Shown piece after piece: positions 11,183 to 16,130 of a stretch of DNA of 64,000 bases. The position numbers and the translations under genes were made by a program. Under the pieces are notes generated by a model that saw only the letters and a list, made by a program, of their open reading frames with translations, had not been told where the DNA came from and did not search any database. The stretch is from Verrucomicrobiia bacterium (GTDB lineage Bacteria; Verrucomicrobiota; Verrucomicrobiia; Limisphaerales; Fontisphaeraceae). The stretch lies in assembly GCA_026414565.1 (NCBI GenBank), contig JAOAIT010000012.1:1-64000 (forward strand). Direction: 5' to 3'. Position 1 is the stretch's first letter, and the number at the start of each line of letters is the position of its first letter.

Positions 11183-12199
11183 ATGATTGGCCGTATCTTG
11201 CCATGTTGGATGCTGTTGGCCGCCGGCCTTGCCGGTGCCGCAGGGCCTTCCCTCAATGAACTCCGGGAGGTCCTGCTCAAACATTTGGAGGGCGTCAACC
11301 CGGAGATGCTGGACGAAGCCGCCGTGGACGGCATCTTGCGCCGCTTCAGCAACCAGGTCATGCTCGTGACCAACGCCGCCCCCCGCGCCCCACGCTCCGC
11401 CACCGCGGACACCAATGCCCCCGCCGTCGCCCAGCACCGCATCTTCGACGACCAATATGGTTATTTGCGCCTCACCCGTCTCGAAAGCGAAACCGTGGAC
11501 GAAATCACCCGGGCTTTGTCTGAACTGACCTCCTCCAATCAACTCAAGGGCCTCGTGTTGGACCTCCGCTTCGCCGCCGGACGCGACCTGGCCGCCGCCG
11601 GACGCCTGGCCCAATGGTTCGTGGGCCGCAACCGCCTCCTCATGGAATGGAAAGGCCAAAAAATCACCGCCCCGCCCGAACCCGCCGGGAACCCCGGCCC
11701 GCTGGTCGTCCTCATCAACGGCCAGACCAAAGGCGCGCCCGAAGTGCTGGCGGCCATCCTCCGCGAACAAATCACCGCCGTCCTCATCGGCTCCCCCACC
11801 AGCGGCGACACCGCCGAGTATCGCGAAGTCACCCTCGCCAACGGCCAGCTCCTCCGCCTGGCCGTGGCCGCCGTCACCCTCGGCGACGGCCAGCCCCTCA
11901 AACCCGGCGGCGTCCGCCCGGACATCCTCGCCGCCGTCAGTGAACGCGAAGAACGCGCCTATCTCGACAACCCCTTCCGCCTGGGAGAGGGAGGCGGCGA
12001 CCCGGCCTCGCGCCCACGCCTCACCGAAGCCGACCTCGTCCGCATGAAACGGGAAAGCTCCGAAGGCGAAAGCCCCGCCCGCCCCCGCCCCTCCACCCGC
12101 CCGGACCCCGCCGCCCAACTGGTGCGCGACCCGGCTCTGGCCCGGGGACTGGACTTGCTTAAAGGTTTGAATCTGCTCAAAATGGGCCGCGGTTCCTGA
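11183..12199 (+). CDS. Secreted S41-peptidase-like protein lacking the catalytic dyad
   Basis: The product is 338 residues from the ATG at 11183, with a signal peptide of about 20 residues. The central part has the tail-specific protease (S41/CtpA) fold pattern: GYLRLTRL..ETV, LVLDLRFAAG, LVVLINGQTKGAPEV and a closing PDG-type strand. At the nucleophile site the usual SASASE reads TKGAPE, so Ser is replaced by Gly. The usual FGKG lysine site reads SGDT. There is no PDZ domain. It is therefore probably a pseudo-protease or binding protein. The C-terminal 60 residues are rich in Arg, Pro and Ser. Confidence 0.72.
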   Translation: MIGRILPCWMLLAAGLAGAAGPSLNELREVLLKHLEGVNPEMLDEAAVDGILRRFSNQVMLVTNAAPRAPRSATADTNAPAVAQHRIFDDQYGYLRLTRLESETVDEITRALSELTSSNQLKGLVLDLRFAAGRDLAAAGRLAQWFVGRNRLLMEWKGQKITAPPEPAGNPGPLVVLINGQTKGAPEVLAAILREQITAVLIGSPTSGDTAEYREVTLANGQLLRLAVAAVTLGDGQPLKPGGVRPDILAAVSEREERAYLDNPFRLGEGGGDPASRPRLTEADLVRMKRESSEGESPARPRPSTRPDPAAQLVRDPALARGLDLLKGLNLLKMGRGS

Positions 12200-12284: not shown

Positions 12285-14444
12285 ATGAAAACCGTACTGT
12301 TTGTCTGCACCGGAAATATCTGCCGCAGTCCCATGGCCGAAGGATTGCTGCGCCATCTGACCCGCGACAAAGGCGGGTACCGCGCACTCTCCTGCGGCCT
12401 GGGCACGCTCGAAGGCCAGATGCCCAGCGCCCACGCCGTCCGGGCCATGGCTGACATCGGCATTGACATCTCGCACCAGCGCAGCCAGCCCATTAGCGCC
12501 GCCCTCGTCGAGCAGGCCGATGTCATCGTCGGCATGACCCGCAGTCATGTGGAACAAATCCTCCTCCTGTACCCCCACGCGGCCGAAAAAACCTTCCTCT
12601 TGCGCGAATTTGACGACACCCTGCCCAACCACCAAAAAGACATCGCCGACCCCATCGGCATGCCCTACGAGGTCTATGTCGAATGCCGCCGGCAAATTGA
12701 ACAAGGAATCCGAGCCATGCTGAACTTTTTTGAATCCGCTCAAAACCACCGCGAAACCACCGCCCAGCTCCGCGCCGCCATCGGCGCCGACCACGGCGGC
12801 TTCGCCTTGAAGGAAGCCCTCAAACCCCTCCTGGAGGCGCGCGGCTTTGTCGTCGAAGACCACGGCGCCGCCTCCGCGGAATCCTGTGACTACCCCGACT
12901 ACGCCCAGGCCGTCGCCGAAGAAGTCGCCCTGGGCCGGGCCGCCTTGGGCGTCCTCGTCTGCACCACCGGCATCGGCATGAGCATGGCCGCCAACAAAAT
13001 CCCCGGCGCGCGCGCGGCCCTCGTCACCACCCCCGAGCTGGCCCGCCTGGCCCGCACGCACAACGATGCCAACATCCTTTGCCTCGGCGCCAAAGTCACC
13101 CCCCCCGAAACCGCCAAAGCCATCCTCGAAGCCTTCCTCGAGGCCGGCTTCGAAGGCGGCCGCCATCTGCGCCGCGTCCTCAAGATGGAAAAAGGCCTCT
13201 CCTGCCCCGGCCTCTGGTTGAAACGCACCGACCCGGCCATCGCCGACGCCATCGCCCGCGAGCGCCAGCGCCAGCAGGAAAACATCGAGCTGATCGCCAG
13301 CGAGAACTTCACCAGCCTCGCCGTCATGGAGGCCCAGGGCTCCGTCCTCACCAACAAATACGCCGAAGGCTACCCCGGCAAACGCTGGTATGGCGGCTGC
13401 GAAAATGTGGACGTGGCCGAGCAACTGGCCGTGGACCGCGCCAAGGCCCTCTTCGGCGCCGAACATGCCAACGTCCAGCCCCACTCCGGCAGCTCGGCCA
13501 ACATGGCCGTTTATTTCGCCATGCTCAAGCCCGGCGACAAAATGCTGACCATGGACCTCAGCCACGGCGGCCATCTGACCCACGGCAACAAGGCCAATTT
13601 CTCCGGCAAGTTCTTTGAAATCATCCATTACGGCGTGCGCCGCGAGGACGAGCGCATTGATTACCATCAACTGGCCGACCTCGCCCGCCAGCACCGCCCC
13701 CGCATGATCACCGTGGGCGCCAGCGCCTACCCGCGCATCATTGATTTTGCCCAAATGGGCGAAATCGCCCGCGAGGTCGGCGCCCTCCTCCTGGCCGATA
13801 TTGCCCACATCGCCGGCCTCATCGCCGCCGGCCTGCACCCCAGCCCGGTCGGCCACGCCGATTTTGTCACCACCACCACCCACAAAACCTTGCGCGGACC
13901 TCGCGGCGGCCTCATCCTCTGCAAGGCCCAGTACGCCAAGGAAATTGACTCCATCACCTTCCCCGGCATCCAGGGCGGCCCGCTCATGCACGTCATCGCC
14001 GCCAAGGCCGTCTGCTTCCAGGAAGCCATGCAGCCGGAGTTCAAAACGTACCAGCAAAATATCCTCAAAAACGCCCAGGCCCTGGCGCAGGGGCTCGCCC
14101 GCAACAACTTCCGCCTCGTCAGCGGCGGCACCGACAACCACCTCATGCTCGTGGATGTCGGCGCCCGCGGCATGACCGGCAAGGACTGCCAGATTGCCCT
14201 CGACGAAGCCGGCATCACCGTCAACAAAAACACCATCCCCTTTGAAACCCGCTCCCCCTTCCAGGCCAGCGGCATCCGCCTCGGCACCCCGGCCGTCACC
14301 ACCCGCGGCATGGGCGAAAAGGAAATGGCCGCCATTGCCGACATGATTGCCGAAGTGCTCTGTGACCTCAAAAATCCCGCCACCGCCCGCCAGGTCCGCG
14401 AGCGCGTGCGCGAGCTGACCGCGAAATTCCCCTTGCCCTATTGA
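12285..14444 (+). CDS. glyA: Trifunctional fusion: LMW phosphatase - ribose-5-P isomerase B - serine hydroxymethyltransferase
   Basis: One uninterrupted frame of 719 residues holds three complete enzymes. Residues 1-150 are an LMW protein-tyrosine phosphatase: [12 protein letters not shown] with C8/R14 and a DPIG acid loop at D122. Residues 162-303 are RpiB: GADHGG, catalytic C226 in VCTTGIGMS, and H259 in THND. Residues 304-719 are SHMT, which makes glycine and methylene-THF from serine: [23 protein letters not shown] and the PLP lysine K534 in [13 protein letters not shown]. Each part has near-normal length. Internal ATGs at 12717 and 13185 have no evident ribosome site. Firmicutes keep ywlE, ywlF (rpiB) and glyA in one cluster, so this looks like a fusion of ancient neighbours. 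The Ile after Asn in the P-loop favours phosphotyrosine over phosphoarginine. Confidence 0.9.
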
Positions 14445-14602: not shown

Positions 14603-14632
14603 ATGGCTAAAGCGTATGCCACGAACTGCTAA
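14603..14632 (+). CDS. Nine-codon upstream ORF overlapping the rho start
   Basis: An ATG at 14603 opens a frame encoding MAKAYATNC and stops at 14632, inside rho but in another frame. The rho ATG at 14616 lies within it. It could be a leader that tunes rho translation, or simply an unused ATG. No ribosome site separates the two starts. Confidence 0.25.
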
Positions 14633-16130
14633 AACCAAAACGGCCAAAAAAAAGGCCGCCAAAAATTTGACCGAAGCCCCTGAGACCTCCCAGGAAAACC
14701 AGGCGGCGATGGCGCTTGTCTCCGAAGCCGGCCCGCCCCCGGCCGCCGACAAAGAGCCGGAAAAAGAAGGGCCGGTGCGCGACGCCTCCGACCTGCGCCC
14801 CCCCCAACATGCCGTCGAAACCACCGAGGGCATGAACGAAGCCCCCGCCGCCCCCGTGGACCGCAGCGCCCCCGGCTCCATCAACATCGCCAAGCTGCAG
14901 GCCATGAGCATGCCGGAGCTGACCAAAATGGCCAAGGAATGGGGCGTGGAAAACTTCGGCACCATGCGCAAGCATGAGATCATCTTCCAGCTCCTCCAGA
15001 AAAATGCCGAGCGCAGCGGCGTCATGTTCTCCGAAGGCGTCCTGGAAGTGCTCCCCGAAGGCTTTGGCTTCCTCCGCTCCCAAAGTTTCAACTACCTCCC
15101 CTGCCCCGAGGATATTTACGTCTCCCCCTCCCAAATCCGCCGCTTCGATTTGCAAACCGGCAATGTCGTCGCCGGCCAGATCCGCCCCCCCAAGGAAAAG
15201 GAAAAGTTCTTCGCCCTCCTCAAAGTCGAGGCCGTGGACGGCGAAGACCCGGAAAAGGCCAAGGACAAAACCCATTTCGACAATCTCACCCCGCTCTTCC
15301 CCAACAAGCGTTTCATCCTCGAAACCGAACCCGATGAACTGTCCACCCGCGTGCTGGACCTCGTCTGCCCCATCGGCAAAGGCACCCGCGGCCTGATTGT
15401 CGCCCCCCCCCGCACCGGCAAAACGGTGCTCATGCAAAAACTCGCCAACGCCATCCTCCGCAACAACCCCGAGGTCTATCTCATCATCCTCCTCATTGAC
15501 GAGCGCCCGGAGGAGGTCACCGACATGGAGCGCACCTGCAAGGGCGCCGAGGTCATCAGCTCCACCTTCGATGAACCCCCCGAACGCCACGTCGCCGTCG
15601 CCGAAATGGTCATCGAAAAAGCCCGCCGCATGGTCGAACACAAGCGCGACGTCGTCATCCTCCTCGACTCCATCACCCGCCTCGCCCGCGCCTACAACAC
15701 CGTCCAGCCGCACTCCGGCAAAATCCTCTCCGGCGGCGTGGACGCCAACGCCCTCCACAAGCCCAAGCGCTTCTTCGGCGCCGCCCGCAACATCGAGGAG
15801 GGCGGCTCCCTCACCATCATGGCCACCGCCCTCATTGACACCGGCTCCCGCATGGACGAAGTCATCTTTGAGGAGTTCAAGGGCACCGGCAACATGGAAG
15901 TGCACCTCGACCGCCATCTGGTGGACCGCCGCATCTTCCCCAGCATCAACATCGAACTCTCCGGCACCCGCAAGGAAGAGCTGCTCTACCACCCGGACGA
16001 GTACCAGAAGATCGTCCTCCTCCGCCGCGCCTTGACCGGCGTCCCGCCGGTGGAAGCCATGGAGCTGCTGCTCAACAAGCTCAAGAAAACCCCCAACAAC
16101 ATCATGTTCCTCTTGAGCCTGTCGGTCTGA
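14616..16130 (+). CDS. rho: Transcription termination factor Rho
   Basis: The product is 504 residues. A Lys/Ala- then Pro/Glu-rich extension occupies about residues 1-85. The Rho N-terminal helical domain (about 88-130) and the cold-shock-like RNA-binding domain with GFGFLRS (about 135-210) follow. The RecA-type motor contains Walker A APPRTGKT (263-270), [13 protein letters not shown], Walker [17 protein letters not shown] and the C-terminal RRIFP..NI.LSGTR segment. Rho is a hexameric RNA helicase that ends transcription. The extension is longer than in E. coli Rho (419 residues), as in several other phyla. A strong intrinsic terminator follows the gene. Confidence 0.97.

Follow-up and report, generated by a model that had tools for sequence, protein, structure and literature searches.

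Why would a bacterium keep a protein that has the fold of a protease and neither of the two residues with which such a protease cuts? The question is raised by an open reading frame on the forward strand (positions 11183-12199) of the 64,000-nucleotide stretch of Verrucomicrobiia DNA analysed here, which we refer to as the window. Its frame is unbroken and encodes a protein of 338 aa, called the pseudo-CTP below. The original prediction for this gene was an exported S41-type protein selected for binding, perhaps of peptidoglycan or protein tails. At the level of sequence, our analysis points to a loss of the Ser-Lys dyad that is nearly fixed among relatives, a split between dead and Ser/Lys forms on one branch, a shared gene neighbourhood, purifying selection, and retention of a C-terminal helix in relatives that lost the PDZ domain and the cap. 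The reading that we favour, tentatively and at somewhat less than an even chance, is that of a non-cutting assembly subunit that docks through its C-terminal helix, perhaps on an active CTP; it presumes export, assembly, the partner and a regulatory effect.

The gene and its product

The predicted S41 fold holds up well: the Pfam model Peptidase_S41 (PF03572) scores 79.6 bits, with a cut-off of 24. The absence of a PDZ domain is likewise borne out, as no Pfam PDZ model matches the 338-aa protein, and no NCBIfam model scores above its own cut-off. The start codon is backed by a congener, whose protein aligns from residue 1 onwards, and by the hydrophobic, signal-like character of residues 1-21 (11183-11245) in a hydrophobicity scan, from which the protein is probably exported; no clear ribosome-binding site was found upstream of 11183. 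An AlphaFold2 model based on an 81-row alignment (mean pLDDT 87.1, pTM 0.80) has as its best PDB match the CtpA protein of Pseudomonas aeruginosa (7rqh_A; VIA Z 24.0, rmsd 5.1, 247 aligned residues, model residues 17-334), which is also the best solved relative by phmmer (71.7 bits, residues 85-260).

All parts of the protein are encoded on the forward strand. The N-terminal helices (residues 22-56; 11246-11350; helices 24-34 and 40-54 in the model) are homologous to the N-terminal dimerisation region of CTPs, as judged by the CtpA alignment and the contact positions discussed below, and are followed by the S41 core (residues 85-255; 11435-11947), defined by the Pfam match, phmmer and the fold search. 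Within the core lie two cap hairpins (residues 150-163, 11630-11671; residues 211-230, 11813-11872). In CtpA, the cap is described as strands S4, S5, S8 and S9 (PMC8764530), which we count in the model as 152-156, 159-162, 212-217 and 223-229. Towards the C-terminus come a conserved EADLVR stretch (residues 279-292; 12017-12058), recognised in the family alignment, and a helix (residues 315-335; 12125-12187) that alignment, model, contact positions and identities identify as homologous to the C-terminal dimerisation region of CTPs. The CTP fold is hence present together with its N- and C-terminal dimerisation helices, a statement about homology and not about assembly itself.

Loss of the catalytic dyad

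Both changes in the dyad were part of the original prediction, and alignment with CtpA together with the structure model confirms them. G184 of the TKGAPE motif (codon 11732-11734) aligns with the catalytic Ser of P. aeruginosa CtpA, and D209 of the SGDT motif (codon 11807-11809) with its catalytic Lys, the catalytic residues of CtpA being given as Ser-302, Lys-327 and Gln-331 (PMC8764530). In addition, the NPGG loop of CTPs reads AAGRD in the 338-aa protein, and the DPHS-type segment of CTPs is missing. With Gly184 and Asp209 at the places of the Ser and Lys that define active CTPs (S41A), it is confirmed at the sequence level that the dyad is absent, and the protein should not cut.

A Ser and a Lys contributed by another part of the chain would have overturned this conclusion. 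No such relocated pair is visible in the sequences of 42 family rows: Ser stays below 70% in every column (62% at best), and the sole Lys column of at least 70% is K327, which lies within the C-terminal helix.

Fixation of the loss among relatives

The dyad loss is common to the family in the order, class and phylum sets, which rules out an oddity of one genome. The order was assigned from record titles (Limisphaerales, Pedosphaera, Verrucomicrobia subdivision 3) and the class from taxonomic codes. Among 58 genomes of the order, including the window's own, matches above 100 bits were obtained in 47; a further three (G004, G024, G043) have a short form and one (G045) a contig-end fragment. Ser is found in 0/49 of the extracted order proteins that cover the serine site, and Lys in 2/47 at the lysine site. 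Similar counts were obtained for 80 named loci plus the window protein (Ser 0/81, Gly 71/81, Lys 3/81) and for 70 class and phylum loci plus the window protein (Ser 0/71, Lys 2/71), these three sets overlapping and each containing the window protein, twice in the case of the 71-row set. The orthologues thus bear out a near-fixed loss, the lone Ser among dead forms being that of a short form (L303) that has neither the lysine loop nor the cap. At the lysine place, the 81 rows of the order vary widely (Q 25, E 16, G 13, R 10, plus others). The window genome also encodes a CTP of its own (a 474-aa frame), in which Ser and Lys are both present.

All 81 rows of the same alignment (A2) match Peptidase_S41 at E 0.01 or better, and none of them matches PDZ. 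The 80 named loci are the best 80 of 122 confirmed relatives and were chosen in a pattern scan by their C-terminal motif; conservation of the C-terminal helix was therefore taken from a separate alignment (A1) of 42 of the 50 order loci, the other eight having been dropped as fragments or for unclear starts. Coverage beyond the phylum comes only from the C-terminal pattern scan, in which titles are mostly Verrucomicrobiota with a few other taxa. Six members (L115, L131, L138, L160, L176, L186) are on contigs titled Omnitrophota, Klebsiella pneumoniae, Akkermansia muciniphila or Proteobacteria; these off-phylum titles probably reflect mislabelled metagenome bins.

A gene of this kind might simply be decaying and have no important function, as could be argued from its stepwise loss of domains and from the 100 of 188 class genomes without a match at 1e-30. 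We consider this highly improbable. The window protein and that of the congener are 73% identical, with dN 0.20 and dS 1.16 (NG86), hence dN/dS about 0.17, and the differences fall mostly on third codon positions (71, 46 and 171 at the three positions in 337 codons); 16 columns are invariant across the 42 divergent rows, and the frames are unbroken in all aligned loci of the 81-row, longer-form and class and phylum sets. The sequence comparison supports the view that the gene is under purifying selection although its product should not cut.

A longer, PDZ-bearing dead form

When 145 genomes of the phylum were searched, some CTP-like matches of about 430 aa proved to be dead as well, and 30 loci from this search comprise 9 dead and 21 Ser/Lys forms. 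A profile of six longer dead rows (A3) was run against 288 genomes of the phylum and found 26 matches that exceed 240 bits, the next one scoring 192 bits; the profile's own six rows are among the 26. All 26 come from genomes of the same phylum and not of the same class as the window. Their sites are Gly/Asp in 24, Glu/Ala in one and Gly/Asn in one; a weaker match (L226) has Gly/Arg, and three further matches (L227-L229) are all Ser/Lys. Of the 26, 22 match PDZ with an E value of 0.01 or lower (5/6 profile rows and 17/20 others), and 11 of those other 20 pass a curated PDZ cut-off. The Gln-331 place is Arg in 19/20 longer dead rows. Across L200-L225 the triad places read Gly, Asp and Arg almost throughout.

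This conserved Gly-Asp-Arg replacement may mark a new site. It could belong to a remodelled enzyme that does other chemistry, with Thr182, Thr206 or the Asp as actors, and Thr182 is indeed present in 98% and Thr206 in 100% of the 42 family rows, while crotonase-fold enzymes are among the structural neighbours of the model (Z about 11). Nevertheless, such an enzyme seems very unlikely to us, as the Asp is not kept in the window's order, the short forms described below are without the loop, and at both Thr places the majority of Ser/Lys CTPs likewise carry Ser or Thr, which is why we read them as structural.

The Gly/Asp pair of the window protein is the state of the longer dead form. In a tree of 77 rows from which three motif stretches had been removed, a single branch (100/93) splits 57 dead from 20 Ser/Lys rows; this tree is unrooted and contains neither the two outgroup rows nor the long L226. 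A quick tree that includes the two outgroup rows gives the dead group a support of 87, with the outgroup rows scattered. The 20 Ser/Lys rows consist of the CTP of the window genome and 19 of the 21 Ser/Lys loci from the 145-genome search; they were picked by dyad, which makes their intact dyad a selection criterion and not a control. Only for L227-L229 did the dyad play no part in the choice, and these are Ser/Lys in 3 of 3. The active state is ancestral in S41. Most simply, then, the dyad would have been lost once, before the sampled classes split, and the PDZ domain later; that the PDZ-bearing and the PDZ-less forms lost the dyad independently was rejected as the simplest account on the basis of the single-branch split. 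The PDZ-less label needs two changes on the tree, with L298 and L299 sitting among longer forms, so that PDZ was probably lost at least twice. The pseudo-CTP would accordingly represent an old Verrucomicrobiota family, derived from an S41 protein that lost first its dyad and then its PDZ domain.

Short forms without a cap

In nine of 196 genomes of the order, the protein (L300-L308) lacks the N-terminal helices as well as the two cap hairpins; three of the nine are the query rows, and the starts were judged from a signal-like stretch. The first hairpin is missing also from L174, L188 and L329. Because both hairpins are gone, the nine genomes have lost the substrate tunnel, which, as far as sequence can tell, is dispensable in these relatives. 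The EADLVR (or EAELVR) stretch and the C-terminal helix are kept in 9/9 short forms, and a cluster neighbour on the same strand in 8/9.

These forms bear on the binding function first proposed, in which peptide tails or peptidoglycan would be held in the tunnel of the dead active site. The full-length form keeps the core fold, and the changed site of the PDZ-bearing form is conserved (Gly/Asp 24/26, Arg 19/20) as a binding site would be. The lysine site, however, varies freely in the window's order, and PDZ was lost, as were the cap hairpins in nine genomes, while the C-terminal helix was kept; as for peptidoglycan, nothing that we found bears on it. We therefore think that selection for tail or peptidoglycan binding is unlikely. 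That relatives dropped PDZ and, in nine genomes, the cap while the C-terminal helix stayed argues instead for a docking or assembly role, in which the pseudo-CTP would act outside the cytoplasm as a non-catalytic subunit assembling through this helix.

Gene neighbourhood

Upstream of the pseudo-CTP gene lies a gene of the LMW phosphatase family (PF01451; 10609-11127, forward strand), a place at which many relatives have purD. Downstream, also on the forward strand, follow a single reading frame for LMW-PTP, RpiB and SHMT (GlyA) at 12285-14444 and the gene for the transcription terminator Rho at 14616-16130. Two LMW-PTP domains hence flank the gene, the second within the downstream frame. This triple frame of 719 aa occurs in 38/80 named loci, 13/40 class and phylum loci and 15/20 larger order loci, loci in which not all three domains were found being scored as misses.

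The gene for the longer dead form is located between purD-purE and sua5, LMW-PTP and rpiB, and 24/26 longer dead loci have at least one of purD, purE, sua5, LMW-PTP and rpiB within the flanks covered. Among the 30 loci of the 145-genome search, such a neighbour is present in 7/9 dead and 0/21 Ser/Lys loci; the neighbour queries were drawn from the window and one of the dead loci, which also match each other. In the window's order, purD is directly upstream in 11/20 larger loci. It lies within 1.5 kb upstream in 23 of the 80 named loci (short contigs included), with LMW-PTP within 3.5 kb downstream in 37, and of 40 further class and phylum loci, 30 have purD upstream and 10 have LMW-PTP downstream. 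The place of the gene thus appears to be widely, though not always, shared. Since many relatives in the phylum keep the dead version, often at this same place among housekeeping genes, it is likely to have a job other than cutting. A partner gene was not found in the neighbourhood of the pseudo-CTP loci.

The C-terminal helix and its possible partners

In CtpA, the N-terminal helices are reported to form the dimer and the C-terminal helix to join dimers, and CtpA minus six C-terminal residues is still a dimer (PMC8764530). By alignment, 11 N-terminal and 4 C-terminal contact positions of CtpA were mapped onto the family, and 10/11 and 4/4 of these, respectively, are hydrophobic in at least 81% of the 42 rows, the exception being the L70 place, which is Asn or Asp. 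The window protein has Arg at the L53 place as well, which brings its changes among the 11 N-terminal positions to two (R28, D44). Excluding self-pairs, the mean identity of dead to Ser/Lys rows in the C-terminal helix is 0.457, as compared with 0.490 among the Ser/Lys rows, whereas the corresponding values are 0.264 and 0.516 in the core. For the N-terminal helices they are 0.232 and 0.417, and the PDZ-bearing dead form has an identity of 0.129 to the Ser/Lys forms in this region. As the N-terminal helices have diverged in the PDZ-bearing dead form and are absent from the short forms, the dimer contact that they make is not general to the family.

The similarity of the C-terminal helices, which for the window protein and its own genome's CTP amounts to 53% over residues 315-329 as opposed to 28% in the core, makes the active CTP of the same cell the likeliest partner, which the dead subunit may cap, tether or tune. 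That a CTP assembly could be mixed is made conceivable by the CtpA-LbcA complex, in which a dimer is described as having one inactive protomer (PMC11021448). Several observations count against an active CTP as partner: the divergence or absence of the N-terminal helices in other dead forms; the changes R28 and D44 among the N-terminal contact positions; the EADLVR stretch, which is conserved in the family and not common to the phylum's CTPs (0.083 identity to the Ser/Lys CTPs, although P. aeruginosa CtpA has EADL at this place); and the helix similarity itself, which could come from conserved packing on the S41 body instead of docking. The neighbouring genes are housekeeping genes with, to our knowledge, no link to CTPs, which also counts against this partner. 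Co-occurrence with an active CTP is uninformative, since CTPs are found in nearly all genomes of the order.

Three features would suit an exported scaffold, working alone or as a homo-oligomer, whose C-terminal module binds an unrelated partner and which has nothing to do with an active CTP: family members conserve EADLVR where the phylum's CTPs do not, the short forms consist of the S41 body and the C-terminal module only, and the gene is far from CTP genes. Such a scaffold is possible, if on balance doubtful, given that the C-terminal helix is nearly as close to those of Ser/Lys CTPs as these are to one another, and a change of partner would free the helix to diverge. Returning to docking on an active CTP, its most far-reaching version holds that a phylum-wide, vertically inherited dead subunit joins the active CTP via the common C-terminal helix and controls it, and that it was stripped stepwise (dyad, PDZ, then cap and N-terminal helices) to a body with a docking helix, the short forms being the minimal working part. 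In this full form, the proposal is speculative, and we would give it a limited chance of being correct.

In our view, the family amounts to a natural deletion series of a protease, in which the dyad went first and PDZ and the substrate tunnel later, while the assembly helix was kept, often at one gene position. Two questions thereby become testable: which part of a CTP serves a purpose apart from cutting, and whether Verrucomicrobiota have mixed CTP assemblies.

Comparison with known systems

In open-licence papers, our searches brought up no account of a pseudo-CTP family from bacteria. The closest known system is CtpA of P. aeruginosa (PDB 7rpq, 7rqh, 8sxe), with which the N-terminal helices, core, EADL stretch and C-terminal helix align and whose fold is matched over nearly the whole model. 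In contrast to the pseudo-CTP, which is without dyad, NPGG loop and PDZ, CtpA is an active Ser-Lys protease with a PDZ domain, and it is described as being switched on by LbcA (PMC8764530, PMC11021448). CtpB of Bacillus subtilis (PDB 4c2c, 4c2f) shares the CTP fold (4c2f_A, Z 21.6) and a homologous N-terminal dimerisation region, but is reported to be active and PDZ-gated and to have a different C-terminal contact (PMC8764530).

The vertebrate S41-fold binding protein RBP3, or IRBP (PDB 9frx, 4lur, 1j7x), resembles the pseudo-CTP in having an S41 fold without the normal dyad (Z 18.5 for 4lur) and differs from it in having four modules, which by profile alignment carry G, T, S and G at the serine place, one of them being TxGAAE-like. 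By whole-sequence score RBP3 tops the profile table (141.4 bits across four modules). Its best module, however, reaches 40.4 bits compared with 114.6 for the CtpA core, and by phmmer it scores 38.7 against 71.7 bits for CtpA, so that the pseudo-CTP is no closer to RBP3 modules than to CTPs. Kinship with IRBP was considered, and the TxGAAE likeness looks convergent from the profile alignment; no paper on IRBP descent was found, and the loss of the dyad in RBP3 is likely to be separate from that in the pseudo-CTP. RBP3, which binds retinoids, shows that S41-fold proteins without a normal dyad are already known, and dead proteases in regulatory roles are well known too, the rhomboid pseudo-proteases being an example.
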